Shown: positions 3,792 through 64,000 of the stretch, in pieces
How the letters are laid out: every line of letters starts with the position of its first letter
Position numbering within the stretch: position 1 is the stretch's first letter
Assembly (NCBI RefSeq): GCF_041468085.1
Contig: NZ_CP121014.1
Coordinates: 124,001 to 188,000 of the forward strand
DNA from: Tistrella mobilis
GTDB lineage: Bacteria > Pseudomonadota > Alphaproteobacteria > Tistrellales > Tistrellaceae
Direction: 5' to 3'
Length of the DNA stretch: 64,000 nt
Notes under the pieces: generated by a model
Databases searched by the model: none
Seen by the model: only the letters and a program-made list of their open reading frames with translations
What the model was told of the DNA's origin: nothing
Position numbers and translations under genes: made by a program

Positions 3792-5180
3792 ATGTGCGAC
3801 GCCAAGGCGCGCCCCGACATGCGGCCGGTCTATCCCAAGGCCGGCAGCTATCCCGATTTCGCCGATCTGGTCGACGACAGCCGCGCCCAGGTCGATCGCC
3901 GGGTCTTCATCGACCGCGCGATCTATGAAGCCGAGCTTCGGCAGATCTTCGGCCGGGCCTGGCTGTTCCTGGCCCATGAAAGCCAGATCCCCAATCCCGG
4001 CGATTTCGTGCGCACCTATATGGGCGAGGACGATGTCATCGTCGTCCGCCAGCGCAATGGCCGCATCGGCGCCTATCTCAATTCCTGCCCGCATCGCGGC
4101 AACCGGGTGTGCATGGTGGACAGCGGCAAAAAGGCCCGCGGCTTCATCTGCAACTATCACGGCTGGTCCTTCGGCATCGACGGCCGGCTGAACGGTACCG
4201 ACGGCAAGGTCTACGACAAGGATCCCGGTTTCGAGAAATCCGCCATCGGCCTGACCCCGGTCGCCCAGGTGGCAAGCTATAAGGGCCTGGTCTTCGGCAC
4301 CTTCGATCCCGAGGCGCCGTCGCTCGAAGACTATTTCGGGCCGTTCACCTGGTATCTCGACGTCATGCTCGACAATGACGAGGGCGGCACCGAATTCATC
4401 GGCGGCTGCGTGAAGTCCACCGTCGAGTGCAATTGGAAGTTCCCGGCCGAAAACTTCGTCGGCGACATCCTCCACGCCTTCTGGACCCATCAGTCGGGTG
4501 CCGAGGCGATCCTGGGCGGGGCCGTCGATCTGGGCTCGCGCTATGACGAGCGCGCCTTTCAGGCCAGCGTCTACGGCCATGGCATCGAGACCAATCTCGA
4601 CAAGGTCGGCAACACCCGCACGCTGGGCTTCCCCGAGCTGAACGACTATGTGCTGGGCCGCTACGAGGCGGTCAAGGCGCGGCTGGGCGAGGTCAGGGCG
4701 CGGATGGTGGGGGCCGTGTCGTCCTGCACCGTCTTCCCCAATTTCTCCTTCCTGCCCGGGCAGGCGACCTTCCGCGTCTGGCACCCCAAGGGGCCGGACC
4801 GGATCGATCTCTACACCTGGACGCTGGTGAACAAAAACATGCCCGAGCGGATCAAGGAGCTGTACCGCAAGGGCACCATGATCACCTTCTCGCCCGGCGG
4901 CGTGTTCGAGATGGATGACGGCGAGAACTGGGAATACTGCACCAAGGCCAATCAGGGCTGGGTGACCCGGCATCAGAAGCTGCATTACGGCCTGGGCCAG
5001 GACAGCGCCTGGTCCGAGTCGGACCTGCCCGGCCACATCCATCGCGGCTCGCTCAACGATGCCAATCAGCGCCAGTTCTACAAGCGCTGGGCCGAGTTCA
5101 TGCGCTTCGACAGCTGGGGCGATCTGCAGCGCGCCGAGACCGCGCCGCCGGCCAAACCGCTGCCCCAGGCGGCCGAGTGA
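3792..5180 (+). CDS. Aromatic ring-hydroxylating dioxygenase, large (alpha) subunit
   Basis: This is the catalytic subunit of a Rieske non-heme iron oxygenase that adds both atoms of O2 to an aromatic ring. It is 462 residues, the usual size for alpha subunits of the alpha3-beta3 type. The Rieske centre uses Cys99 and His101 (CPHRGNRV) and Cys120 and His123 (CNYHGWSF). The catalytic iron site is NFVGDILHAFWTH, with the bridging Asp225 and ligands His228 and His233. A GGAGG site precedes the ATG. The beta subunit follows 11 bases later, and the ferredoxin lies upstream, so this is a three-component system together with the reductase at 11.2 kb. The substrate is not readable from the sequence. 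Confidence 0.95.
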   Translation: MCDAKARPDMRPVYPKAGSYPDFADLVDDSRAQVDRRVFIDRAIYEAELRQIFGRAWLFLAHESQIPNPGDFVRTYMGEDDVIVVRQRNGRIGAYLNSCPHRGNRVCMVDSGKKARGFICNYHGWSFGIDGRLNGTDGKVYDKDPGFEKSAIGLTPVAQVASYKGLVFGTFDPEAPSLEDYFGPFTWYLDVMLDNDEGGTEFIGGCVKSTVECNWKFPAENFVGDILHAFWTHQSGAEAILGGAVDLGSRYDERAFQASVYGHGIETNLDKVGNTRTLGFPELNDYVLGRYEAVKARLGEVRARMVGAVSSCTVFPNFSFLPGQATFRVWHPKGPDRIDLYTWTLVNKNMPERIKELYRKGTMITFSPGGVFEMDDGENWEYCTKANQGWVTRHQKLHYGLGQDSAWSESDLPGHIHRGSLNDANQRQFYKRWAEFMRFDSWGDLQRAETAPPAKPLPQAAE

Positions 5181-5191
5181 GGGAGGCGAGG

Positions 5192-5734
5192 ATGACCGTG
5201 CAAACCGTTCCCATGCTGGACGAAACCCCCGTCGGCGATGCGCTGCTCCGCCGCATCGAGCGCTTCTATTACCGCGAGGCGCGGCTGCTCGACCGCGAGG
5301 CCTATGCCGACTGGCTGACCCTGCTCGACCCCGGCATCCGCTACTGGATGCCGGCGATGGAAACCCGCAAGCGCGGGGATCAGCGCGGCCCCTGGACCGA
5401 TGGCGAGATGTCCTATTTCGACGACGATTTCGCCATGCTCAAGGTCCGGGTCGCCCGCTATGAACAGCCCTCGGCCTGGGCCGACAACCCGGCGACCCGG
5501 CATCTGCACATCGTCACCAATATCGAGGCGATCGAGACCGGCACCCCCGGTCTGGTGCGCGCCTTCTCGTGCTTCGAGAACGTGCGCAATCGCAACGAGA
5601 AGGACCAGGACGTCATCCACGGCCGCCGCGAAGATCTGCTGAAGCTGGACGGCGATCGGATCACCCTGGCCGAACGCCGGATCCTGATCGTGCAGAACAT
5701 CCTGCTGTCCAAGAATCTGAACACCTTCTTCTGA
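5192..5734 (+). CDS. Aromatic ring-hydroxylating dioxygenase, small (beta) subunit
   Basis: This is the structural beta subunit of the terminal oxygenase, with the cone-shaped SnoaL-like fold. It is 180 residues from the ATG at 5192, which follows a GGGAGG ribosome site. A GTG at 5177 in the same frame overlaps the preceding stop codon and is less likely. Family features include LLRRIERFYYREARLLD near the N-terminus, YWMPAMETR in the middle and LLSKNLNTFF at the end, where beta subunits usually finish with a similar aromatic motif. It is translated right after the alpha subunit and lacks metal ligands. Confidence 0.93.
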   Translation: MTVQTVPMLDETPVGDALLRRIERFYYREARLLDREAYADWLTLLDPGIRYWMPAMETRKRGDQRGPWTDGEMSYFDDDFAMLKVRVARYEQPSAWADNPATRHLHIVTNIEAIETGTPGLVRAFSCFENVRNRNEKDQDVIHGRREDLLKLDGDRITLAERRILIVQNILLSKNLNTFF

Positions 5735-8431: not shown

Positions 8432-9366
8432 CCAAGGTCAAATGCGCCATCATCGGTTCGGGCAATATCGGCACCGATCTGATGATCAAGATCATGCGCA
8501 TGTCGAAGACGCTGGAGATGGCGGCCATGGTCGGCATCGATCCCGAGAGCGACGGGCTGAAGCGCGCCGCGCGGCTCGGCGTCGCCACCACCCATGAGGG
8601 TATCGAGGGGCTGCAGGCCCTGCCGGTCTATCCTGAGATCGGCATCGTGTTCGATGCCACCTCGGCCGGCGCCCATGCCCGTCACGACCGGCTGCTTCAG
8701 GCCGACGGCAAGCAGGTGATCGACCTCACCCCGGCGGCGATCGGCCCCTATGTGGTGCCGCCGGTCAATCTCGATGCCATGCGCGATGCCCCCAACGTCA
8801 ACATGGTCACCTGCGGTGGCCAGGCCACGATCCCGATCGTGGCGGCGGTGGCGAGCGTCGCACCCGTGACCTATGCCGAGATCGTGGCCTCGATTTCCTC
8901 GCGCTCGGCCGGCCCCGGCACGCGCGCCAATATCGACGAGTTCACCGAGACCACTTCGCGTGCCATCCGCGAGGTCGGCGGTGCCGGTGCCGGCAAGGCG
9001 ATCATCGTGCTGAACCCGGCGGAGCCGCCGCTGATCATGCGCGACACGGTCTATTGCCTGGCGCAGACCCATGACCGCGAGGCGATCCGCACGGCGATCG
9101 AGAAGATGGTGGCCGAGGTTCAGGCCTATGTCCCCGGCTACCGGCTGAAGCAGGCGGTGCAGTTCGAGGTGATCGGCGACAACGCGCCGCTCCGCATCCC
9201 CGGCGTCGCCGAGGCGGCCACCGGCCTCAAGGTCAGCGTCTTCCTGGAGGTCGAAGGCGCCGGCCACTATCTGCCGGCCTATGCCGGCAATCTCGACATC
9301 ATGACCTCGGCGGCGCTGAAGACCGCCGAACGCCTGGTCGATCTGCGGCGCGAGAAGGCAGCCTGA
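8428..9366 (+). CDS. mhpF: Acetaldehyde dehydrogenase (acylating)
   Basis: This enzyme converts acetaldehyde, NAD and CoA into acetyl-CoA, taking the aldehyde through a channel from the partner aldolase. The 312 residues match MhpF/DmpF/BphJ. The N-terminal Rossmann motif is [12 protein letters not shown] and the nucleophile is Cys129 in [12 protein letters not shown]. The gene overlaps the hydratase by four bases and the aldolase starts three bases after it, as expected for subunits of a bifunctional complex. Confidence 0.95.
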
Positions 9367-9369
9367 CCC

Positions 9370-10428
9370 ATGACCGACATCATTGCGACCGACAGCACGG
9401 CGACCACCGCTCCCTTGCGTCTCTACGTCCAGGACGTCACGCTCCGCGACGGCATGCATGCCATCCGCCATCAGTACACGCTGGATCAGGTGACGGCGAT
9501 CGCCGCCGCGCTCGACCGGGCCGGCGTCGATGCGATCGAGATCGCCCATGGCGACGGGCTCGCGGGCTCGTCCTTCAATTACGGCTTCGGCCGCACCACC
9601 GATCTGGACTGGATCGAGGCCGCGGCCTCGGTGATCACCCGCGCGAAGCTCACCACCCTGCTGCTGCCCGGCATCGGCACCATTCATGATCTGGAGCGGG
9701 CCTTTGCCGCCGGCGTGCGCTCGGTCCGGGTCGCGACCCATTGCACCGAAGCCGATATCGCGAAGCAGCACATCGCCCATGCCCGCAAGCTGGGCATGGA
9801 CGTCTCGGGCTTCCTGATGATGAGCCATATGAACCCGCCCGATAAGCTGGCGGCGCAGGCGAAGCTGATGGAAGACTACGGCGCCCATTGCGTTTATGTG
9901 GTCGATTCGGGCGGTGCGCTCACCATGGCCGGTGTCGCCGACCGGGTGCGGGCTTTCCGCGAGGTGCTGGCGCCTGAAACCCAGATCGGCATCCATGCCC
10001 ATCACAACCTGTCGCTGGGCGTCGCCAATTCGGTGGTCGCGGTCGAATGCGGCGCGATCCGGGTCGATGCCTCGCTCGCGGGGCAGGGGGCCGGTGCCGG
10101 CAATGCGCCGCTGGAGGTGTTCATCGCCACCGCCGACCGCTATGGCTGGGCGCATGGCTGCGATCTGTATGCGCTGATGGATGCCGCCGACGATCTGGTC
10201 CGCCCGCTTCAGGACCGGCCGGTCAGGGTAGACCGCGAGACGCTGAGCCTCGGCTATGCCGGGGTCTATTCCAGCTTCCTGCGCCATGCCGAAACCGCCT
10301 CCGCCACCTATGGCGTCGATGTCCGCCGCATCCTGACCGAACTCGGCCGGCGCCGCATGGTCGGCGGCCAGGAGGACATGATCGTCGACGTGGCGCTGGA
10401 TCTGGCGCGCGAGGCGCCTCAGGGTTGA
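9370..10428 (+). CDS. mhpE: 4-hydroxy-2-oxovalerate aldolase
   Basis: This divalent-metal class II aldolase cleaves 4-hydroxy-2-oxovalerate into pyruvate and acetaldehyde, the last step of the meta pathway, and works in complex with the acylating dehydrogenase. The 352 residues match MhpE/DmpG/BphI. Landmarks are [14 protein letters not shown] (Asp and Arg of the active site) near residue 20, and the metal-binding [15 protein letters not shown]. The gene's last ten bases overlap the 3' end of a convergent TetR gene. Confidence 0.95.
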
Positions 10429-11241: not shown

Positions 11242-12474
11242 ATGAAGATGAGCCAGATCGTGATCATCGGCGGCGGCCAGGCCGGTGGGGCCGCGGCATT
11301 GGCCCTCAGGCGCCATGGCGCGACCGGCCCCATCACCCTGATCGGTCGCGAAGCGCTGCCGCCCTATGAACGTCCGGCGCTCTCCAAGGGTCTGCTGCTG
11401 GGCGAGACCCCCTTCGACCGGCTGGTCGTGCTGTCCGAAGCCGTCGCGGCCGAACAGGCGATCACGCTCCGCCTCGGCACCACCGTTACCGCCATCGACC
11501 GGGCGGCGCAGACGGTGACCACCGATGCCGGCGACGTTCTGCCATACGGAACCCTGATCCTGGCCACCGGCGGTCGCGCCCGCGCGCTGCCGGGGCTTGC
11601 CCCCGATGGCCGCGACATCTTCGCCATCCGCACCGCCGCCGATGCCGGGGGGATCCGCGCGCGCATGGCCCGGTCCCGCTCCCTGCTCGTGATCGGCGGC
11701 GGCTGGCTGGGGCTGGAGGTCGCGGCCAGCGCCCGCAAGACGGGGCTCGACGTCACCCTGGTCGAGGCGGGCCCCCGGCTCTGCGGCCGGGTGCTGCCGC
11801 CCGTGGTTTCGGCCATCCTGGCCGATCTCCATACCCGCCGCGGGGTGGATCTGCGTCTTGGCGACGCCCCGGTCTCGCTGACCCCGGCCGATGGCGGCGT
11901 CTCGGCGCGTCTGGCCTCGGGCGCGGTTCTGGCCGCCGACATGGCCGTGGTCGCGGTCGGTCTGACGGTCGAGGACGATCTGGCCCGCGCCGCCGGTCTC
12001 GCCACCGCCGACGGCATCCTGACCGATCCGGCCGGCCGCACCGAAGACCCGGCGATTTTCGCCATCGGCGACGTGGCCCGCACCCCGCACCCCGCCCTGG
12101 GCAGCGCCGCCCGCCTGGAAAGCTGGCAGATGGCCAATCTCCAGGCCGAGACGGCGGCGCGCGCGATCCTGAATCTCCCGGTTCCGTCGGCCGAAACCCC
12201 CTGGTTCTGGTCGGATCAGTACGACGTCAACCTCCAGATCCTGGGCCTGCCCGACATGGCGGTGCAGCCCATCCGGCGCGGCAGTCCTGAAACCGGCCGC
12301 GGCAGCCTGCTCTGGCTGGACCCGGCCGAACGCCTCTGCGCCGTCATCGCCCTTAACGCCCCCCGCGACATCGCCATGGCCCGCCGCCTGATCGGCACCG
12401 GCCTGGTCATCGACCGCCCCCGCGCCGCCGATGCGGCGGTACCGCTGAAGGATGCGGTGTTCCGGGCGGCGTGA
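11242..12474 (+). CDS. Ferredoxin reductase (FAD/NADH) of the dioxygenase system
   Basis: This FAD- and NADH-dependent reductase feeds electrons to the Rieske ferredoxin at 3.4 kb. The 410 residues match BphA4/HcaD. The FAD motif is IVIIGGGQAGGAAALALRR at the N-terminus, the NADH motif is LLVIGGGWLGLEVAASARK near the middle, and IFAIGDVA is the second FAD-contact motif. The C-terminal reductase domain contains PWFWSDQYDVNLQILG. A second ATG lies two codons later (11248), and either is possible after the AAAGGCAG site. The gene is split from the oxygenase genes by an opposing TetR gene, so it must have its own promoter in the 157-base divergent gap. Confidence 0.93.
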   Translation: MKMSQIVIIGGGQAGGAAALALRRHGATGPITLIGREALPPYERPALSKGLLLGETPFDRLVVLSEAVAAEQAITLRLGTTVTAIDRAAQTVTTDAGDVLPYGTLILATGGRARALPGLAPDGRDIFAIRTAADAGGIRARMARSRSLLVIGGGWLGLEVAASARKTGLDVTLVEAGPRLCGRVLPPVVSAILADLHTRRGVDLRLGDAPVSLTPADGGVSARLASGAVLAADMAVVAVGLTVEDDLARAAGLATADGILTDPAGRTEDPAIFAIGDVARTPHPALGSAARLESWQMANLQAETAARAILNLPVPSAETPWFWSDQYDVNLQILGLPDMAVQPIRRGSPETGRGSLLWLDPAERLCAVIALNAPRDIAMARRLIGTGLVIDRPRAADAAVPLKDAVFRAA

Positions 12475-55275: not shown

Positions 55276-56148
55276 TTACCCGCCGCCCGAGGCATCGGAC
55301 ATCCACTGCGCGAACACCGCCATGGCCCGGGTCTGCGGCCGATCCGACGGCCAGGCCAGGAAGTATCGCCCGGCCGATACGGTGATCGTGAAGGGCCGGA
55401 CCAGTCGCCCCTGGCGGATCTGGCGGGTGAACATGGCGACCGGCAGCAAGGCGACGCCGAAGCCGTCGGCCGCCAGTTCCGCAAGCGCCACCGAGCTGTC
55501 GAAGATCGGGCCGGTCACGGGCGGGCAGGGGGTTCGGGCGGCCGCGAACCATTGCGGCCATTCCGTGGCGCGATAGCTGCGCAGCAGGATCGTCTTGCCC
55601 AGATCGGCCGGCTCCCGCAGCTGCGCGGCCGCTGCCGGTGCGCAAAGCGGCGCCAGCGGTGCCTCCATCAGCGGCACGGTCTCATGTCCGGTCCAGCCGC
55701 CGGTGCCGAAGCGGATGGCCATGTCCAGCCCTTCGCGCAGGATTTCCACGCGGTTGTTGTTGGTGGCGATGCGCAGCTCGATCTCGGGATGCGCCGCACG
55801 GAATCCGTCCAGCCTTGCCATCAGCCAGCCCAGGGCGAAGGTGGTGTTCACGCCGACATTCAGCACCTCGACATCCCGCCTGCCGTGCAGCCTGTCCAGC
55901 ACCCGGCCGATGGCGTCGAAACTGTGTTCCAGCACCGGCGCCAGAAGCCGGCCTTCATCCGTCGGCACCAGGCCTTGCGAGGTGCGCTGGAATAGGGTGG
56001 TGCCCAACAGATCCTCCAGCCGGGCGATCTGATGGCTGACCGCCGCCTGGGTCACGCGCAGCTCGATCGCCGCCTTGGTGAAGCTGCCCTGGCGCATGGC
56101 GACCTCGAAGACGCGCAGCGCGTTCAGGGGGATGTCCGGGCGATCCAT
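55276..56148 (-). CDS. LysR family regulator, GcvA/AmpR-like
   Basis: This 290-residue regulator has an N-terminus of the AmpR/GcvA clade, IPLNALRVFEVAMRQGSFTK, then AAIELRVTQAAVSHQIARLE. It is divergent from a class A beta-lactamase gene 103 bases away, the classic ampR-bla layout, so it probably activates the lactamase in response to muropeptides. A LysR-type dyad lies in the gap. No ampG or amidase gene is in the window to support the muropeptide route. Confidence 0.9.
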   Translation of the reverse strand: MDRPDIPLNALRVFEVAMRQGSFTKAAIELRVTQAAVSHQIARLEDLLGTTLFQRTSQGLVPTDEGRLLAPVLEHSFDAIGRVLDRLHGRRDVEVLNVGVNTTFALGWLMARLDGFRAAHPEIELRIATNNNRVEILREGLDMAIRFGTGGWTGHETVPLMEAPLAPLCAPAAAAQLREPADLGKTILLRSYRATEWPQWFAAARTPCPPVTGPIFDSSVALAELAADGFGVALLPVAMFTRQIRQGRLVRPFTITVSAGRYFLAWPSDRPQTRAMAVFAQWMSDASGGG

Positions 56149-56150
56149 CG

Positions 56151-56167
56151 CATAACCTCAGCTTATG
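56151..56167. promoter_or_regulatory. LysR-type dyad in the ampR-like/bla gap
   Basis: CATAA and TTATG are separated by seven bases, giving a T-N11-A LysR box just upstream of the regulator start. A second CATAAG follows at 56223. It is a likely binding site for the divergent LysR protein. Confidence 0.55.
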
Positions 56168-56251
56168 GCGGCCAGCAGGATTTGTCTTCTGGGCGGCCGA
56201 TGCAAGCCGGATTAAGAGAGCGGCATAAGAAAATCTTGAGGAGATCTCATA

Positions 56252-57157
56252 ATGCCGACCGCTCTTCCGCGTCTGCCGCGTCTGCCGCGTCTGGCGGGGC
56301 TTGCCCTCGGGCTGTTGCTGGCGACGCCGGCCCTTGCCGAAACACCGAAGACCCATATGGCCGAGACCCGGCTTGCCGACACCGTCAGCCGCATCGAAGA
56401 TCAGCTCGACGCGCGCATCGGCCTTGTGCTGCACGATACCGGCCGCGGCTGGAGCTGGGATCACCGCGCCGACGAGCGCTTTCTGATGAACAGCACCGTC
56501 AAGATGCCGATCTGTGGCGCGATCCTCGCCGGGGTCGATGCCGGGCGCATCTCACTGGACGAAACCCTTCCCATCCGACGGGCCGATCTGCTGTCCTATG
56601 CGCCGGTCACCGAACCGCGTGCGGGCACGGCGATGTCGATCGCCGATCTCTGCTTCGCCACCCTGGACCAGAGCGACAACACCGCCGCCAATCTTCTGAT
56701 CGCCCGTCTCGGCGGCCCGGCTGCGGTCACGCAGTTCTTCCGCAGCATCGGCGACCCGGTCAGCCGGCTCGACCGGCTCGAACCCGATCTGAACAGCGCG
56801 CCTCCCGGCGACCCCCGCGACACCACCAGCCCGGCGGCCATGGCGGCCACGATGGAAACCCTGCTTCTCGGCCATGGCCTGACCCCCGCCTCCCGGGCGC
56901 AGCTGACCGAATGGATGCGCCATGGCGGCGTCACCGGCGCCCTGCTGCGCAAATCCGCCCCGGCCGACTGGCAGATCGCCGATAAATCCGGTGCCGGTGA
57001 CACCACCCGCAACCTGGTGGCCCTGATCACCCCGCCCGATCGGGCGCCCTGGATCGCGGCGATCTACCTGGCGGACGCCGAGACGGATTTCGCGACGCGC
57101 AACAAGGCGCTGGCCGAGATCGGCGCAGCGGTGGTGGCCGTCATCAAGGGGCGGTGA
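56252..57157 (+). CDS. Class A beta-lactamase
   Basis: This periplasmic serine enzyme has 301 residues that hydrolyse penicillin-type antibiotics. Signal peptide: about residues 1-29. Motifs: Ser81-Thr-Val-Lys84 (S-x2-K), Ser141-Asp-Asn143 (SDN), Glu177 in RLEPDLN, and Lys245-Ser-Gly (KSG in IADKSGAGD). Cys88 and Cys134 match the Cys77-Cys123 disulfide of TEM-type enzymes. All catalytic residues are intact. The substrate range cannot be read from sequence. The N-terminus carries a 9-base tandem repeat. A GAGGAG site precedes the ATG. Confidence 0.95.
   Translation: MPTALPRLPRLPRLAGLALGLLLATPALAETPKTHMAETRLADTVSRIEDQLDARIGLVLHDTGRGWSWDHRADERFLMNSTVKMPICGAILAGVDAGRISLDETLPIRRADLLSYAPVTEPRAGTAMSIADLCFATLDQSDNTAANLLIARLGGPAAVTQFFRSIGDPVSRLDRLEPDLNSAPPGDPRDTTSPAAMAATMETLLLGHGLTPASRAQLTEWMRHGGVTGALLRKSAPADWQIADKSGAGDTTRNLVALITPPDRAPWIAAIYLADAETDFATRNKALAEIGAAVVAVIKGR
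56267..56293 (+). repeat. 9-bp tandem repeat in the lactamase signal region
   Basis: Three copies of CCGCGTCTG in tandem encode three Pro-Arg-Leu triplets ahead of the hydrophobic signal core. It adds basic residues to the signal n-region. Confidence 0.8.
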
Positions 57158-57162
57158 CCGGC

Positions 57163-57735
57163 TCAACGCCGGCCGATACCGTCCAGGAACAGGTCCGTCA
57201 GATGGCGGACGCGCGGCGGTGACGCGCCTGCCTGTTCCGGGGCGCCCTCCTGTTCCAGGACGAGCGAGATCGCCGTCACCACGCAGACCAGATCCTGGAA
57301 GCGCACATCCGGGCGGACGGCGCCGGATGCCTGCGCCTGGCGCAGCAGGCGCTCACCCTCTTCGGTGGTGGCATGGCAGCCGGGTGTCCCGCTCTGCAGA
57401 ACCGTGCCGATCGCGGTGGCAAACCCGCGATAGAGCGTCGTGCCGGTCACCAGGTCTTCGAGATAGGCCCTGAGCGCGCCGGCCGGATCACGCCCGTCAT
57501 CCCGCGCCCGGCTCGCCGCGGCAAGCGACAGGAAGCGGGCATTATAGGTGGCGGCCAGCAGGGCCTCTCGCGTCGGGAAGCGCCGATACAGCGTGCCGAT
57601 ACCCACGCCCGCGCGCTTCGCCACATCCTCCAGCGCGGCGCCGGCGCCCTGTTCCAGAAACACCGCCTCGGCCGCGGCCAGGATGCGCTCGCGGTTTCGC
57701 CGGGCATCGGCGCGCAGCGCGCCCTCCTGGTTCAT
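57163..57735 (-). CDS. TetR family regulator
   Basis: This is a helix-turn-helix repressor-type protein of 190 residues if started at ATG 57735, or 209 from ATG 57792. The DNA-binding part is ALEDVAKRAGVGIGTLYRRF with PTREALLAATY after it. The C-terminal domain ends in LTDLFLDGIGRR. This clade often controls a divergent SDR or drug-related gene. The SDR gene at 57838 diverges from it, and two palindromes lie between them. If 57792 is the start, one palindrome falls inside the gene, which favours 57735. Confidence 0.9.
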   Translation of the reverse strand: MNQEGALRADARRNRERILAAAEAVFLEQGAGAALEDVAKRAGVGIGTLYRRFPTREALLAATYNARFLSLAAASRARDDGRDPAGALRAYLEDLVTGTTLYRGFATAIGTVLQSGTPGCHATTEEGERLLRQAQASGAVRPDVRFQDLVCVVTAISLVLEQEGAPEQAGASPPRVRHLTDLFLDGIGRR

Positions 57736-57777
57736 GCTGTCTTCGTTCACGGTCTTCTCCGGGAACACTTGCCAAAC

Positions 57778-57818
57778 GGAGGATGCCTCCATATTTTAAG
57801 TGGAGCAATCCTCCACTT
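57778..57818. promoter_or_regulatory. Double palindrome between TetR and SDR genes
   Basis: GGAGG-ATG-CCTCC (57778-57790) and AAGTGGAG-N5-CTCCACTT (57798-57818) stand 7 bases apart in the divergent gap. The second is a perfect 8-bp-arm operator and the first shares the GGAG/CTCC core. They probably are TetR binding sites controlling both directions. Confidence 0.7.
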
Positions 57819-57837
57819 ATGACATGGGGCATGACAG

Positions 57838-58611
57838 ATGGGCTTCGCGCAGCGATCTGAGAACAGGTTCGGGAACCGGTTTGAGAACAAGGTGGTGGTG
57901 ATCACCGGCGGCAGTGACGGCATCGGCCTGGCCACGGCGCAGCATTTCGCCGCCGAAGGTGCCCATGTCTACGTCACCGGGCGGCGGCCGGCGGCGCTGG
58001 ACGCGGCCGTGGTCGCCATCGGTCATGGCGCCGTCGGCGTGCCGGGGGATGTCGCCGACCCGGCGGATCTGGACCGGCTCTACGACCGCATCCGCCGCGA
58101 CCATGGCCGCATCGACATCGTCTTCGCCAATGCCGGGATCTCCGAATCCGCCGGCCTCGACGCCATCGACGCGGCCCATATCGACCGCCTGTTCGGCGTC
58201 AACCTCAAGGGCACGGTCTTCACCGTGCAAAAGGCCCTGCCGCTGATGACGACGGGCGGCGCCATCATCCTCGCCGGCTCGGCCGCCGGCAGCAAGGGCC
58301 TGCCGGGGCTCTCGATCTACAGCGCCACCAAGGCCGCCATCCGCTCCTTCGCCCGCACCTGGACCACCGACCTCAAAACCCGCGGCATCCGCGTGAACGT
58401 GGTCTCCCCCGGCATGATCCTGACCCCGTCCATGGACAGATACCTCACCGCCCAGCCCGGCGCGGAAGACGCCCTGAAACAGATGACCCCCTTCGCCCGC
58501 CTCGGCACCGCCGACGAGGTCGCAAAAGCGGTGCTGTTCCTGGCCTCGGAGGACAGCAGTTTTGTGGCGGGGGACGAGGTGTTTGTGGATGGGGGGGTGA
58601 TGGCGGTTTGA
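57838..58611 (+). CDS. Short-chain dehydrogenase/reductase, TetR-linked
   Basis: This SDR has 257 residues. Motifs: VVITGGSDGIGLATAQHF near residue 20, FANAGISESAG for NAG, Ser in AGSAAGSKG, and the catalytic Tyr-Lys in SIYSATKAAIRSF. It ends in DSSFVAGDEVFVDGGVMAV. Such TetR-paired SDRs often reduce reactive carbonyls; the substrate here is unknown. The stop overlaps the start of a transposase remnant's open frame. Confidence 0.92.
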   Translation: MGFAQRSENRFGNRFENKVVVITGGSDGIGLATAQHFAAEGAHVYVTGRRPAALDAAVVAIGHGAVGVPGDVADPADLDRLYDRIRRDHGRIDIVFANAGISESAGLDAIDAAHIDRLFGVNLKGTVFTVQKALPLMTTGGAIILAGSAAGSKGLPGLSIYSATKAAIRSFARTWTTDLKTRGIRVNVVSPGMILTPSMDRYLTAQPGAEDALKQMTPFARLGTADEVAKAVLFLASEDSSFVAGDEVFVDGGVMAV

Positions 58612-58964
58612 TCGACCGCCTGCTCGGCCCACGCGGCCCCCATCCCAACCGCGTGTCCCCGGAGGGGGAGTCGGCAGTGCTGGACGATGCCCTGGCTCAT
58701 CCCTGCCACGGCTCCCTGCGGGTGGCCCAGGAACTGGCGAAGCGAAACATCCGGGTGTCGTCCGGCGGCGTGCGAGGCGTATGGCAGCGCCACAACCTGC
58801 TGACCAGGCACGACCGCCTGCTTTGCCGGGAAAAGAGCACCGCGGAACGCAGGCTAACCCTGTCGGACGAGCACATCCGCGTTGAAGGCCATCGCATCTG
58901 GTTCGATACCATCGAGGAGATGCAGGTCGTGCTCGACCAGAACTTGGTCATCCACAATACCTGA
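58608..58964 (+). pseudogene. IS481-like transposase remnant, internally deleted
   Basis: An open frame of 118 codons joins two separate pieces of a transposase. The first (from about 58644, NRVSPEGESAVLDDALAHPC to RRLTLSDEHIR) is the helix-turn-helix N-terminus of IS481-type elements. The second (about 58880-58964, IWFDTIEEMQVVLDQNLVIH) is close to their C-terminal end (ETVEEMQTVLD..L). The whole DDE catalytic core between them is missing, so it cannot be active. The first residues (MIDRLLGPRG) run in from the SDR stop and are probably chance. Confidence 0.82.
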
Positions 58965-59054
58965 TTACCTCACAAGAGGGTGTGACTGTCAGCGGATAAT
59001 CAACTCTGCACACATATATGCAGCTCGCCCAGATGCTGCCTTGATACGCCACAG

Positions 59055-60434
59055 TTATATTTCAGCAGGACGTCCGCGATCATTTTCCTTTTGCTCCATA
59101 AATTTCGGCGTTGCTGAAATCTTAGGATATGTGGCGTCGTGGTGTTCTTTGATTGATGAACAGACTTTATCGTACAGCCCGCCAAGCCGTTCTACATTAA
59201 CCATATCTCGCGCGATATTTCGGAAGATCCTGGAGAAAGGCCTATTCTTATAGGGGCGAAAGAGTTGATTAAGTTTAGAGCTGACGCTCACGTTGACCCC
59301 GGTCAAGCCAACCGATAAAGAGAACTGCACTCCGTTATCAGTTGAAACGCCATACTTTCGCATAAGCCGAGCGCACGATTGTTCCAGATACTTCAGAATG
59401 CCATTCATTTCTTGAACTCTATCCGCTGTGGACAGGTGGTCTAGATTATGAAGGATCGTGCGACAATCCCGAAATTCGCTTGCATTTCGCATGGAAAGGG
59501 CAAGCTCTATGCACTGTTTTGGATTATCAGCCTTCGATATACAGTATGCTGTAAAAAACGGCAAGCGTATCGCAAATTTAGCGCGCCCAGTTGGTTCAAG
59601 AATTGAAGCTAGCGTTTCTTGTGATTTTGACCTCAGTGTCTCCAATAGGGCATTCACTTGCGAAGGGTACTCGATCCTACAGCAGCTCTCACAAAAGGCA
59701 TCTCGGAGCGGTGCAAGATAAGCGTCCGCTCCTTCCTGCTGTGCAACCGCATTATAGAAATGCGAGCGCTCTGCGGCCCATCCGTAGCCAAATATTATCC
59801 GTTGCAGGGCGCTTCTTGAGTCAAAGCCAGCATAGTTTGGATTGCCGGTTGATAGCGCGTGCACCAGATCCTTCACATCTGTGATGTCCGCGCGGTTTGC
59901 GACAGTCACGGTAGGAGCATGATCCATCCCCCTCGCAACCAAGCTGCGATCGACATCCTCGTTTCGGAAAACGCTATCAACCGAGCGTTCATAGCGAGTG
60001 TCTTCTGGATCTTTTACAAGATAAGATAATGTTAAATATTCACTTGAAGACCATATGTCCCATCGTAGTTGTGGATCGATCTTAAGCGCCTCAAAAAAGC
60101 TAACGACATCGCCCGCGGGCTTTGACCCCTCGAACGAAAAAGCCATGCTTTTTGCAAAATTTGCTGCATCTGTCGTGAGAGCAGCGTAGTCTGCTTCATC
60201 AATCTTCTTAAAGGAGACAAAATCAAAATTTCTAAGTCTGCGAGAGCGATATCCGTCTTTGTAATCATCGACACCGATTAGTTTATCGCTGAACAGGATT
60301 GCGGTGATCAATTTCTCCAGGCAAAGAATATCATTATCAGTATTATTCAGATTTTTAGTTTGGCTAACGCCGATAATGCGCTCCACGCCACTTAGCGTTG
60401 CGTTATCGACCAAAATTTGACGATTTGTGCTCAT
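59055..60434 (-). CDS. AT-rich hypothetical protein, family not recognised
   Basis: I do not recognise this 459-residue protein. It has no clear signal peptide or membrane segment and is mostly helical. Blocks that look ordered include LVARGMDHAPTVTVANRADI, QRIIFGYGWAAERSHFYNAV, the cysteine pair in DAFCESCCRIEYP, and IRLPFFTAYCISKADNPKQC. The C-terminal part is positively charged (KNRPFSRIFRNIARDMVNVE). The base composition is plainly lower in GC than every neighbour, with many A/T third positions, so it was probably acquired recently. It lies between an IS481 remnant and an IS5 remnant and close to toxin-antitoxin genes. A role in defence or mobility would be guesswork. Confidence 0.75.
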   Translation of the reverse strand: MSTNRQILVDNATLSGVERIIGVSQTKNLNNTDNDILCLEKLITAILFSDKLIGVDDYKDGYRSRRLRNFDFVSFKKIDEADYAALTTDAANFAKSMAFSFEGSKPAGDVVSFFEALKIDPQLRWDIWSSSEYLTLSYLVKDPEDTRYERSVDSVFRNEDVDRSLVARGMDHAPTVTVANRADITDVKDLVHALSTGNPNYAGFDSRSALQRIIFGYGWAAERSHFYNAVAQQEGADAYLAPLRDAFCESCCRIEYPSQVNALLETLRSKSQETLASILEPTGRAKFAIRLPFFTAYCISKADNPKQCIELALSMRNASEFRDCRTILHNLDHLSTADRVQEMNGILKYLEQSCARLMRKYGVSTDNGVQFSLSVGLTGVNVSVSSKLNQLFRPYKNRPFSRIFRNIARDMVNVERLGGLYDKVCSSIKEHHDATYPKISATPKFMEQKENDRGRPAEI

Positions 60435-60488
60435 GTTAGGCCCATCTCAAATGTGTTGCGCGCAAAAATGGCTAGGCTCCAGACCCAA

Positions 60489-60891
60489 TCACACCCAGAA
60501 CGCGATGATGGCCGCAAGAGCCGCTGCCGACAAGACATTGACCGTTAGCTTATCCTAGCGGGCTGCGACACGCCTGAAGTCATGTGCTGAACGATGGGCT
60601 CTCACATGGGGCGATCGCTATCGATTTCGTCAGGGCTCCGGATGCCGCCGAAGCCTCCGCCAGGCCCGCTCAGAAACGACGCCCGCACCACCGGTGGAAG
60701 CGGTTGTGGATAATTGTCGAGGACCCCTATCCCGCCGGGCAGTCACACCATCGACACCGGGTCCGCAGCATGTAGATGATTCCCGAAGTCATCCGGCGGT
60801 CATCCACACGTCGGGCACCCAGCTGGTTCTTGGGCAGGTGCGGCTCAAGTTGCCCCCACCGTTGGTCCGACAACCAGATAAACTGAAACAT
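60489..60891 (-). pseudogene. IS5-family transposase remnant
   Basis: Read on the minus strand from ATG 60891, this is the N-terminus of an IS5-type transposase (MFQFIWLSDQRWGQLEPHLP, later SGIIYMLRTRCRW and TIIHNRFHRW). It then carries stops at codons where conserved residues should be (after CDCPAG and after GRRF). At the other end FRRVAAR, a TAG, then DKLTVNVLSAAALAAIIAFW is the usual IS5 C-terminus (FRRVATRYDK). The middle with the DDE residues is missing. It is dead by several stops and a deletion. I could not place inverted repeat ends. Confidence 0.82.
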
Positions 60892-60965
60892 CGTGTTCCT
60901 CGCGGTTATGGGCCGCTGGAATCACATGAGGATCTCATTATCAAAAGGTTGGTTGGGTTGTGACC

Positions 60966-61298
60966 TTAGAGCGTGACATCCCCATCAATCTCGGCATCAA
61001 GGTTGACGTCCATGTCTCCGACAAGTGCCGCCATGCGATCGCGCAGGCTGGCGGGCAGTGCGGCGATGGATGTGCCCGGATGTTTGCGCATGTCCTGCGC
61101 CAGAAATGCGAGGAAGCGGTCCACGACCGGATCACTTGCCTCTTCCGTTACCTTCTCGACATAAACCCGATGCTGATCGTCCACAAAGAAGGCGATGCGT
61201 CCGCCGTAGTCCACGTCCAAAGCCTGCCGCACGCTCTTGGGCACAGTGGTCTGGCCGTTGGCGGTGATCGTGCATTCTTCTCTCAGCAGCGTGCCCAT
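60966..61298 (-). CDS. Orphan PrlF-type (AbrB-fold) antitoxin
   Basis: This 110-residue protein has a swapped-hairpin AbrB N-terminus (MGTLLREECTITANGQTTVP, then KSVRQALDVDYGGRIAFFVD) and a C-terminal part (DPVVDRFLAFLAQDMRKHPG, then LRDRMAALVGDMDVNLDAEI), the composition of PrlF antitoxins. Normally a YhaV RNase toxin gene overlaps its 3' end, but downstream there are only 74 bases before the IS5 remnant, so no toxin is present. It starts at ATG 61298. The open frame further upstream is not supported. Confidence 0.85.
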   Translation of the reverse strand: MGTLLREECTITANGQTTVPKSVRQALDVDYGGRIAFFVDDQHRVYVEKVTEEASDPVVDRFLAFLAQDMRKHPGTSIAALPASLRDRMAALVGDMDVNLDAEIDGDVTL

Positions 61299-61363
61299 GA
61301 TCGGCTCCCATCTGATTTCTGATGCTGGCCGACACTGCCACCAATCATGCCTAGGACCTGACA

Positions 61364-61666
61364 TCAGATAATGGCCTGCAACCCCTTGTCCGCAATGACG
61401 TTCAGCAGCTTGAGCGCCGGGCCGGTGGGGCGGGTCGCGCCCTGCTCCCACTTGCGCACGGTCGACGCGGTGGTGTGCAGGTGATGTGCGAACACCGGCT
61501 GGCTGAACTTCAGGCTTTCGCGCAGACGCTTGATCTCCATGGGGCTGAACTCCCGAACCGGGGCCGGGCAGATCTGGCCGAACTCGCGCAGCGTCACCTT
61601 ATTGATGGCGCCTGCGTCGTGGAGCGCAGCCAGGTCCTCGCGCAGCGATTCAATGATTTTGCTCAC
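61364..61666 (-). CDS. HTH antitoxin of a HigBA2-like pair
   Basis: This 100-residue antitoxin starts at GTG 61666, which has a strong GGTGGAGG site. The track of residues SPMEIKRLRESLKFSQPVFA, then HHLHTTASTVRKWEQGATRP, is the XRE-type helix-turn-helix of COG2944-like HigA2/NadS antitoxins. The start overlaps the toxin's last 17 bases. It follows the toxin, as in higBA modules. Confidence 0.9.
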   Translation of the reverse strand: MSKIIESLREDLAALHDAGAINKVTLREFGQICPAPVREFSPMEIKRLRESLKFSQPVFAHHLHTTASTVRKWEQGATRPTGPALKLLNVIADKGLQAII

Positions 61667-62033
61667 AATGCACCTCCACCAGAACACCCGACTGTAACGC
61701 CTTGGTCACGGCATCTCCGGTCAGTTCAAGGAAGACTTTGCCGGCGAACTGCAGCGCCTTCTTTTCGTCTCCTGTGATGTTCGCCTTGTCGTTTTTCGCG
61801 AACCCATGCAGGAATACATAGCGACTGCCGATCCGCGCCGCCAGAAGCGTCCGAAAGCCGCCGCTCTTCCCGCCGCCAGGACGGGGCACGCGCTTCTTGT
61901 AGAGCAGGCCGCCCAGATCGGCATCAATCAAGCCGCTTTCCATTTCCTTGATCGCCTTGCACAGGGCGGCATCGGGCAGCTTCTCGGCGGCTTGCCACCT
62001 GGCGAAGCTCTTCCGCTTGAGGATGCGCGTCAC
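61650..62033 (-). CDS. RelE/HigB2-like toxin
   Basis: This 127-residue toxin probably cleaves mRNA at the ribosome. It has the COG4737 pattern FARWQAAEKLPDAALCKAIK, then EMESGLIDADLGGLLYKKRV, PRPGGGKSGGFRTLLA and FLHGFAKNDKANI, with the basic residues expected at the active surface. A GTG at 62033, five bases after GGAGG, is taken as start. A TTG at 62045 in the same frame is weaker. A palindrome lies 17 bases upstream. Confidence 0.9.
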   Translation of the reverse strand: MTRILKRKSFARWQAAEKLPDAALCKAIKEMESGLIDADLGGLLYKKRVPRPGGGKSGGFRTLLAARIGSRYVFLHGFAKNDKANITGDEKKALQFAGKVFLELTGDAVTKALQSGVLVEVHCEQNH

Positions 62034-62049
62034 CTCGACCTCCAAAATA

Positions 62050-62064
62050 TACCCGAAACGGGTA
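62050..62064. promoter_or_regulatory. Palindromic operator of the HigBA2-like pair
   Basis: TACCCG and CGGGTA flank a three-base centre in front of the toxin gene. It is the probable binding site of the HTH antitoxin. A TATATT overlaps the gene-proximal edge on the minus strand and may be the -10. Confidence 0.7.
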
Positions 62065-62068
62065 GGGT

Positions 62069-62248
62069 CGGGCCAGCGTTAACCCGACATCCGGGGGGCA
62101 GGGCAGAGAAGCCGGTCAGCGACCTCGGCTTGCAGCCTGATGGCCGATACGTGTTTGAATGTGGCCGGTTTTTCCGCTTCGGCATCGTTGAAGCGTTCTT
62201 CACGCTGACACGCGGGTCAGGCTGATTGCATACGGGCCGAGATACCCC
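62069..62248. other. Gap between toxin-antitoxin operon and GntR gene
   Basis: I see no gene in these 180 bases. A plus-strand open frame ending at 62225 (with FECGRFFRFGIVEAFFTLTR) looks like the end of something but has no recognisable family and no start, and may be an integration scar. Confidence 0.5.
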
Positions 62249-63037
62249 TCACCCCCCATCCCTCTTAATCCGCATCGTATAACTATACCGATCCGCCGGA
62301 TGATCATTCACCGAGGCGATCAGCGGCCGGCCCTTGCGGTCCAGATAGCGGCGGACGACGCGCAGGACGTGGGCTTCGGGGCGGTGGTCGTCGAAAAGGG
62401 TGCGGCTTTCGGGGGGCATGGGCAGGGCGGTGATGGTTTGCAGGGTTTCCATCACCGTCACCCGGGCGCGCTGTTCGATCAGGGCGTAGAAGGGGCCGTG
62501 GCAGTTGGGGAATTCGTCCTTCAGCCAGGCGAAGCGTTCGGGTACGAAGACTTCGGTATAGCTGATCGGCGCGCCGTCGCCCTGGGCGGAGCGGACGCCG
62601 TGGATGTGCAGCCAGGGCTCGGCCGGCTCGGTGCCGATCAGCCGGGCGGTGGGCTCGTCCAGCCGTTCCATCTCCATGCGCTGAATGCGGAAATCGGTAT
62701 CCAGCGCATACTGGAACAGTTCCGACAGAGACCGCATCGACTGGCTGAAGATCGAGCCCGGCTCGGCCGAGAGCACATGGGTGCCCGATCCCTGCCGGCG
62801 CTCCACATAGCCCTGTTCGACCAGGCGGCGCAGCGCCTCGCGCACGGTATAGCGGCTGACGGCGAATTCCGCGCACAGCTCCGCCTCGGTCGGCACCAGG
62901 CTGCCGACCGGGTAGAGACCTTCGGAAATCCGGTCGCGGATCTCCTGGAAGACCTGAAGATAGCGGGGGATTTCCGGGCCGTCCGCCGTGGCGGCTGCCG
63001 GGTCCCGGGTCAGATCTGCCGCCTGATCCTGCTCCAT
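62249..63037 (-). CDS. GntR family regulator, HutC/UTRA type
   Basis: This 262-residue regulator has an N-terminal winged helix (IPRYLQVFQEIRDRISEGLY, then AEFAVSRYTVREALRRLVEQ and GSGTHV) and a C-terminal UTRA ligand domain (AWLKDEFPNCHGPFYALIEQ and RYSYTMRI). The start at 63037 lies inside the CoA-transferase gene's end (28-base overlap), in the same direction, so the two are probably co-transcribed and the GntR protein probably controls this locus. Confidence 0.92.
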   Translation of the reverse strand: MEQDQAADLTRDPAAATADGPEIPRYLQVFQEIRDRISEGLYPVGSLVPTEAELCAEFAVSRYTVREALRRLVEQGYVERRQGSGTHVLSAEPGSIFSQSMRSLSELFQYALDTDFRIQRMEMERLDEPTARLIGTEPAEPWLHIHGVRSAQGDGAPISYTEVFVPERFAWLKDEFPNCHGPFYALIEQRARVTVMETLQTITALPMPPESRTLFDDHRPEAHVLRVVRRYLDRKGRPLIASVNDHPADRYSYTMRIKRDGG

Positions 63038-64000
63038 GCGCGTTCCAGCTCCCCTTGAAATTCGGGCGCGGCCACGGCGATCAGGCGTTCCGCCCGCATG
63101 TCGAGGTCGCACCCGCGCAGATCCGCACAGCCGTATTCGGTGACGACGATGTCGATATCCGCGCGCTGGATGGATACAACAGTTCCACTCTCCAGAACAG
63201 GGACGATCCTGGATCGTGCGCCGCCCGCAGCGGTGGATGCAAGGGCAACCACCGCTTTCCCGCCGGCCGAGCGGCGCGCGCCGCGCAGGAAATCGACCAG
63301 CCCGCCCTGGCCGCTGATCTGGCGGCCGCCGATCATCTCGGCCGAGGCCTGGCCGAACAGATCGACCTCGATCGCCCCGTTCACCGCCACCAGCCGGGGC
63401 AGGGCGCCCAGCCGTGCGATGTCGTGGGTCTCGGCCACCGGCCGGAAGCGCACGTGCTCCGCCCGGGCGATGCGCTGGTGGAAATCGGGCGTGCCCAGGG
63501 CCACGCCGGTGGTGATGCCGCGGCTCGCCACACCCGCCTCCAGCAGCTCCAGCCCCGCCGCCGTCACCATCCCGGCATGCAGCCCCAGATCCCGGTGATC
63601 CTTCAGCGACCGCAGCAGCGCCGCCGGCGCGGCGCCGATGCCGGTCTGGATGGTGGCGCCGTCGTCGATCAGCCCGGCGATGTGCGCGCCGATCCGGCTC
63701 TGGACCGGGTCGTCGCGATCGGGCGGCAGACCGGCGGGCAGGCCGTCGCTTTCGATCAGCCCCGAAAACCGGTCGATCGGGATCCGGATGCCGTCGAGCG
63801 GCTCCGGCAGGTCGGGCAGGATCACCCCATAGAGCCGTGCGCGGCCGGCTGCCACCGCCGGGGTGAAATCATGGGCCATGGCGAGCGACACCATGCCGTC
63901 GCGCGGCGGCGCCACGGTGAACAGCCCCGCGTCGATCTCTGCTCTTTGCAGGTGATGGTATGTATCGACATAGGCGAGCGGCAGATGCCGCACCCGCCCG
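63010..64000 (-). CDS. Acetyl-CoA hydrolase/CoA-transferase family protein, 5' truncated
   Basis: The gene runs off the right edge of the window; 330 codons are visible of a family usually about 430 long. Landmarks are IQTGIGAAPAALLRSLK, GQASAEMIGGRQISGQGG, GGKAVVALASTAAGG, SRIVPVLESGTVVS and the C-terminal VVTEYGCADLRG. This is the pattern of 4-hydroxybutyrate CoA-transferase and acetyl-CoA hydrolase relatives. The catalytic glutamate is in the VNGAIEVDLFGQA segment. It moves CoA between short acids; which ones is unknown. Confidence 0.9.
   Translation of the reverse strand, partial: GRVRHLPLAYVDTYHHLQRAEIDAGLFTVAPPRDGMVSLAMAHDFTPAVAAGRARLYGVILPDLPEPLDGIRIPIDRFSGLIESDGLPAGLPPDRDDPVQSRIGAHIAGLIDDGATIQTGIGAAPAALLRSLKDHRDLGLHAGMVTAAGLELLEAGVASRGITTGVALGTPDFHQRIARAEHVRFRPVAETHDIARLGALPRLVAVNGAIEVDLFGQASAEMIGGRQISGQGGLVDFLRGARRSAGGKAVVALASTAAGGARSRIVPVLESGTVVSIQRADIDIVVTEYGCADLRGCDLDMRAERLIAVAAPEFQGELERAWSRIRRQI

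Follow-up and report, generated by a model that had tools for sequence, protein, structure and literature searches.

We find that a gene on the minus strand of the window (positions 59055 to 60434) belongs to the phrog_13435 family, and our analysis suggests that it may well act as a single-gene anti-phage factor. The window is the whole 64,000-nt stretch of Tistrella mobilis contig NZ_CP121014.1 from 124,001 to 188,000, in the genome labelled G000 here. The argument is one of location: in some Escherichia coli prophages, members of the family occupy a site of phage P2 that is known for defence genes, which points to a one-gene phage defence. Among the chief places where new immune genes of bacteria turn up are hotspots of prophage cargo, and one such hotspot houses members of this family. 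Its carriers include E. coli O157:H7 and P2-like prophages, which lend themselves to work in laboratory strains, and neither Pfam nor NCBIfam nor PADLOC has a name for it. Read in this way, an uncharacterised protein from a soil- or water-dwelling bacterium would gain a directly testable function, and an alphaproteobacterial island gene would be tied to coliphage biology.

The gene is an open frame that runs from an ATG to its stop codon without internal stops and encodes a 459-residue protein predicted to be soluble. It had originally been described as an orphan of no recognisable family. That description fell once profiles were searched, as residues 7-447 match positions 4-463 of the 472 in the phrog_13435 profile (PHROGs v4, E 1e-46), and all 13 members of our alignment A1 match the same profile. 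PHROGs gives the function of this family as unknown, and we found no mention of phrog_13435 or WP_000220361 in the open-licence literature. Neither Pfam nor NCBIfam nor PADLOC yielded a match for the window protein, with no PADLOC-DB 2.0.0 family reaching even E 1. Across 17 members, PADLOC gave three weak hits, each in a single member: NsnC (E 0.0015, over 80 residues in L014), Cas6 (E 0.013, L017) and Csn2 (E 0.017, L009). A clear match to a housekeeping family had been named as something that would refute the original prediction; profile searches returned none for the window protein in Pfam or NCBIfam, or for the family members in Pfam.

The family is rare and scattered. One protein search of genome contigs returned ten alphaproteobacterial loci with near full-length relatives at 58-70% identity, from Tagaea, Bradyrhizobium, Methylorubrum, Cohaesibacter, Mesorhizobium, two Aureimonas and three MAGs (Hyphomicrobiaceae, Sphingomonadales and Xanthobacteraceae). 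With the window protein as query, 3 of 385 genomes of the class contain the family, and a search of the phylum with the PHROGs profile found it in 2 of 398, namely the window's own genome and, again, the Sphingomonadales MAG. In a second class, which we take to be the Gammaproteobacteria, 5 of 369 genomes matched: three strongly (E 1e-191 or better), one (G766) over the full length at greater distance, and one (G1005) so weakly (E 1.9e-4, with two internal stops) that it was excluded from the family. Also set aside were L020 (genome G517), which duplicates L009 frame for frame, and, from the alignments, L005 (NZ_CP095921.1, a Pseudomonas aeruginosa plasmid), whose copy is interrupted. Among viruses, four family queries found no match in 50,697 phage records; of six scans of viral contigs, four were without a match, and the matching contigs are L030 and L031-L033.

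Family proteins are 439-475 residues long and homologous from end to end. They form three clades: an alphaproteobacterial one that includes the window protein, a coliphage-type clade of 470-475 residues at 24-27% identity, and a clade of 443-444 residues at 16-21%. The last clade has two members, which come from different classes and share 63% identity, an argument for transfer across class boundaries. Five of the 14 inner branches of the family tree are well supported, and we make no claim about the finer order. Twenty-three positions are invariant in all 18 aligned members, down to 16% identity, among them Asp10, Asn11, Arg19, Asp50, Tyr58, Arg66, Trp125, Ser130, Trp219, Arg244 and Arg325; Asp56 and Asp162 are nearly invariant in the 17-sequence alignment.

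The case for phage defence comes from E. coli, where two alleles can be followed. The protein of viral contigs L031-L033 has a match of at least 99% in 316 of 5,426 complete genomes, always on the chromosome, and the strains are largely O157:H7 and O55:H7 among the matches listed. In O157:H7 Sakai the copy is ECs_3238, in cryptic prophage Sp16 beside the tRNA gene argW, with a resolvase and a 58-residue gene (ECs_3239) upstream; in strain JNE120393 the resolvase, the 58-residue gene and the family gene stand together next to a different phage remnant. This trio (L034:13709-16413) is kept beside argW in two E. coli strains whose other prophage genes differ. The partner check at the gammaproteobacterial loci was confined to ECs_3239 and ECs_3240, and ECs_3239 was rejected as a partner, since just one of 21 searched sequences, its own prophage, contains it.

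The second allele, WP_000220361.1 or a close variant (query L030), is present in 7 of the 5,426 genomes. In all seven, it stands in a P2-like prophage with the tail fibre assembly gene (G) on one side and the tail sheath gene (FI) on the other, with no further annotated gene between these two, and it is inverted relative to them. Host neighbours of these P2-like prophages differ (yegQ in two and pflB in one of three long views). Phage P2 has fun(Z) at that position, annotated as a nonessential gene of lysogenic conversion that blocks T5 growth when cloned. In the passages of Vassallo et al. 2022 (PMC9519451) on this site, it is a second defence-enriched locus of P2, where fun and three systems described by these authors are located; the other hotspot, between gpA and gpQ, was studied by Rousset et al. 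2022 (PMC9122126), in the part concerned with P2. The window copy itself lies outside any recognised prophage, and the G-FI site holds for its E. coli relative. The original prediction had guessed that the gene might serve defence or stabilisation. Location, in seven of seven E. coli genomes, is what favors the first half of that guess; the second half is not supported by the neighbouring toxin-antitoxin genes, as described below.

The same P2 site also holds a gene that counters the argument from location. In strain CFT073, a P2-like prophage carries neaT at moron position 2; this acyltransferase gene promotes host fitness and, in the passages on it, is not shown to act in defence (PMC3573123). 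Like our family, neaT is A+T-rich and scattered among phages. By analogy, the phrog_13435 genes could be morons that alter the physiology or surface of the host to the benefit of the lysogen, in fitness or niche, and have nothing to do with phage defence. It fits this alternative that, in one study, ECs3238 is listed among the hypothetical genes changed in plant extracts, with values of 11.80 and -2.29 (PMC4940412). Against it, no membrane-like stretch appears in 18 copies (highest 19-residue hydropathy means of 1.08-1.69), which makes a direct action on the envelope less likely, and the family also persists at stand-alone loci in unrelated Alphaproteobacteria. We consider a host-fitness role unlikely.

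The surroundings of the gene bear on whether it serves its bacterial host or the elements that carry it. We compared 20 loci, each counted once and without the window (L005-L017, L026-L030, L034, which stands for the element of L031-L033, and L056). A transposase, resolvase, viral contig, plasmid or prophage is found at the gene in 11 of them. The family gene is lower in G+C than its own stretch in 19 of 19 cases, by at least 0.09 in 14 (with the interrupted L005 left out and the window added). Copies in prophages, on one plasmid and, in three contexts, next to resolvases would suit a gene that works for the mobile element, through anti-restriction or other anti-defence, control of superinfection by the prophage, or maintenance of the element. 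However, 9 of the 20 loci are chromosomal with no recognised element nearby, by our own tally over the part of the frames that was scanned, and the window copy is under selection beside dead insertion sequences. We judge such an element-serving role quite unlikely.

The neighbours themselves are diverse. No recurrent partner gene was found in 14 compared loci, counted apart from the window and its own G033 locus; the features that recur in them are frames lying antisense to the family gene, ABC-ATPase frames (four loci, at varying distances), IS66 (two loci) and the pair L009/L011. Several copies stand directly behind housekeeping genes, including GMP synthase (L008) and an ABC1/UbiB-type kinase (L026). 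Other neighbours are an HEPN_LA2681 protein (L012), a protein kinase (L013), an AAA_13 protein (L015), and an SLFN-type helicase with an HNH protein (L017). At L014, a gap of 51 bp separates the end of the family gene from that of a PIN_12-domain protein encoded on the opposite strand (11431-12366, minus strand, E 7.7e-13). Below the Pfam cut-off, HEPN appears near the L028 copy and PIN-TPR-GreABC near the L005 copy. By an uncontrolled reading, these neighbourhoods look like defence regions. On viral contig L030, two frames that we read as UmuC-like polymerases (4378-5643 and 9140-10402) and an 8xMP membrane protein (PF24838) follow the family gene downstream. In L005 and two other P. aeruginosa plasmid records, the copy is split by an insert with frames for a DDE transposase and for a group II intron-type reverse transcriptase, and resistance genes are nearby.

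In the window, the gene had been placed with an orphan antitoxin and a toxin-antitoxin pair, and both are there. A PrlF-like antitoxin gene lies at 60966-61301 (minus strand; PF15937, E 2.3e-23). The genome has just two matches to the YhaV toxin, both on contig C4, and because none is on the window's contig (C1), the PrlF-like gene is an orphan antitoxin at this place. Beyond it, on the same strand, an HTH antitoxin-like protein (61364-61687; PF13560/PF01381) and a RelE toxin (61650-62045; PF06296, E 4.8e-43) form a toxin-antitoxin-like pair. We regard all three as neighbours outside the proposed system. All three genomes of the genus, including G162, which does not have the window gene, retain the PrlF-like gene, and RelE is absent here from both congeners (61660-62243 is unmatched in G033 and 61704-62243 in G162). 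As the PrlF-like gene is in G162 without the window gene and RelE is missing from the gene-bearing G033, the window gene and its toxin-antitoxin neighbours vary independently. We thus rejected the idea of a toxin-antitoxin island that moves as a single unit, and the stabilisation link of the original prediction finds no support. In place of RelE, G162 has a different A+T-rich frame of 325 residues (L042:5563-6540, minus strand) with no Pfam match above the cut-off (DUF2207_C, E 0.0081); it seems that cargo has been swapped between species at the RelE site. That the window gene is itself a self-contained toxin or addiction element, akin to the genes around it, is suggested by its distance of 531 bp from the PrlF-like gene and its nearness to the RelE pair. 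This same independent distribution speaks against it, as do the alphaproteobacterial set, in which the family gene has no fixed adjacent partner, and the restriction of ECs_3239 to one sequence, and we hold it to be very unlikely.

The proposed anti-phage gene appears to have been acquired, and it has been maintained. The base composition was predicted to depart sharply from that of its neighbours, and this is so: the gene has a G+C content of 0.463, compared to 0.676 for the whole window, and none of 1,044 sliding windows (1,380 bp in 60-bp steps) is at or below 0.463, the lowest ones overlapping the gene. The same prediction put the gene between two dead insertion sequences. On the right, this is borne out by the remnant of an IS4/IS5-family transposase (60500-60930, minus strand), in which an open 64-residue piece (60730-60921) matches PF13340 (E 5e-13) and every frame of 60500-60940 contains stops. 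On the left, it is likely: a truncated transposase-like frame (58608-58964, plus strand), which we take to be IS481-like, had no match in a Pfam scan, and its counterpart in the congener G033 is about 380 bp longer with stops in the three frames examined. A search of 56000-64000 found no RNA family at the gathering score. Promoter and terminator counts at the locus were the same as in shuffled sequence, and we therefore claim no promoter for the gene.

Two of the three genomes of the genus, G000 and G033, have the gene in the same place at 97% identity. In the third, G162, the match to the window breaks off after 58609 and resumes at 60969, and 38 unrelated-looking bases fill the place of the intervening stretch. 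The gene and the insertion sequence remnants on its two sides are therefore one unit that is present or absent as a whole. This variable segment (58610-60968) is in G000 and, with the longer left flank, in G033. The sequence comparison thus supports an acquired gene, as the island of the original prediction implied, both because the segment is missing from G162 and because relatives are scattered over unrelated hosts; G162 either never had the gene or lost it.

The comparison with G033 shows 18 synonymous changes in the gene against 13 nonsynonymous ones (dN/dS 0.21, binomial P 2.4e-5), which is close to the dN/dS of 0.19 for GntR and 0.15 for SDR next door. Its dS of 0.060 is close to those of GntR (0.066) and SDR (0.084), and we infer that the gene was already in place when the lineages of the two species split; divergence is greater in TetR, at a larger distance from the gene (dS 0.31). 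The Aureimonas pair of family copies has a dN/dS of 0.108. Frequent disruption in close relatives was another outcome looked for, and the sole close relative with the gene, G033, has an intact copy. Farther away, the copy in the Sphingomonadales MAG (L009:10001-11320) is missing 20 residues in frame, within an otherwise well-conserved helical part. From these substitution patterns, we conclude that the gene is under purifying selection, although the insertion sequence copies that flank it decay. A decaying passenger without function, as its A+T-richness, its place between dead insertion sequences, the interrupted copies on the three P. aeruginosa plasmid records and the gap in L009 might suggest, is scarcely credible, being largely refuted by the substitution pattern and by 23 positions that stay invariant in 18 of 18 members.

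How an anti-phage protein of this family might work was approached through structure prediction. A first model was too weak (mean pLDDT 51.0); one built from 17 sequences reached a mean pLDDT of 60.5, with 200 of 459 residues below 50. Its better parts are residues 1-97 and about 290-375, and 98-215 is left unresolved by the model. The predicted order is a strand (6-9), Asp10, helices, a strand (51-55), a helix, a strand (73-76), helices, an insert, a helix (209-233) and a strand (236-239), which is suggestive of a PIN-like fold that carries an insert. Codons 1-10 (60405-60434, minus strand) end at the invariant Asp10 just after the first strand, with Asn11 next. When the weak model was compared to the PDB with VIA-align, the best match was 1w8i (139 of 155 residues), at a Z of 5.9, and a Z below 8 may reflect a common arrangement; the next row had a Z of 4.2. 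Lower rows include protein-only RNase P and flap endonucleases (Z 2.2-3.5), which share the PIN-like fold, and 1w8i is, we assume, a PIN-domain protein. Of the three or four acidic residues that PIN nucleases gather in one pocket, Asp10, Asp50, Asp56 and Asp162 would be the candidates here, and the last conserved acid of PIN sites would presumably fall near the invariant Arg244.

Other searches did not repeat this likeness. Foldseek gave no match at E 0.001 or better in the PDB and BFVD, and short-chain dehydrogenases fill much of its lists. The window protein matched no solved structure by sequence at E 1, and by profile the hits were at chance level (E 0.59 and 1.3). Pfam has no domain for it, and when 13 members were scanned their weak Pfam hits did not include PIN. 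A canonical VapC-type PIN domain was rejected by sequence, as hhalign against ten PIN sequences gave a probability of 0.1 with and without the helical insert. The model weakly suggests an N-terminal domain similar to PIN and flap nucleases.

On this basis, we can sketch how the anti-phage protein could function. The window gene would descend from a moron borne by prophages and islands, and its product would act alone; we infer that, like Fun and the other defence genes reported from that site, it protects a lysogen or an island-bearing cell against other phages. The soluble protein might be inactive until its helical middle and C-terminal part sense a phage product or nucleic acid, and the N-terminal alpha/beta PIN/flap-like domain (Asp10-Asn11, Asp50) would then cut nucleic acid. 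Infection would thereby be stopped, probably at the cell's cost. A nucleic-acid-cutting N-terminal domain held in check by the helical remainder until sensing occurs is, given the model behind it, a tentative and somewhat unlikely arrangement. It is conceivable, though we rather doubt it, that the family as a whole is a new single-gene anti-phage family that is unrelated in sequence to catalogued defence proteins, moves through P2-like and P22-like prophages and through islands in the chromosomes of two or more proteobacterial classes, and is built as a split PIN/flap-like nuclease with a long helical sensor insert.

Several known systems resemble parts of this picture. The PIN/flap-nuclease fold is similar in the predicted order of strands and helices over residues 1-97 and 209-245 and in the weak top match to 1w8i, but differs in that the comparison with ten PIN sequences lends it no sequence support. 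NeaT shares the moron site, the inverted orientation, the A+T-richness and the scattered distribution; in the passages that describe it, however, it is a membrane-localised acyltransferase (PF01757) (PMC3573123), whereas the phrog_13435 proteins are soluble and have no Pfam match. The defence genes of the fun locus, in the passages of Vassallo et al. 2022 that concern it, are alike in location, and what may set our family apart from them is PADLOC 2023, which may hold them and gave no match beyond weak single hits. The E. coli members that link the family to this locus are about 25% identical to the alphaproteobacterial clade of the window. As for P2 Fun(Z) itself (NP_046777.1), homology was rejected (hhalign probability 0.1, BLASTP E 0.50), and Fun differs in its length of 528 residues and in a GEKGTGKT motif that we read as P-loop-like. 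The likeness to Fun is that of position: each is a single, inverted, A+T-rich gene (G+C of 0.328 for fun and 0.379 for the relative) between G and FI.
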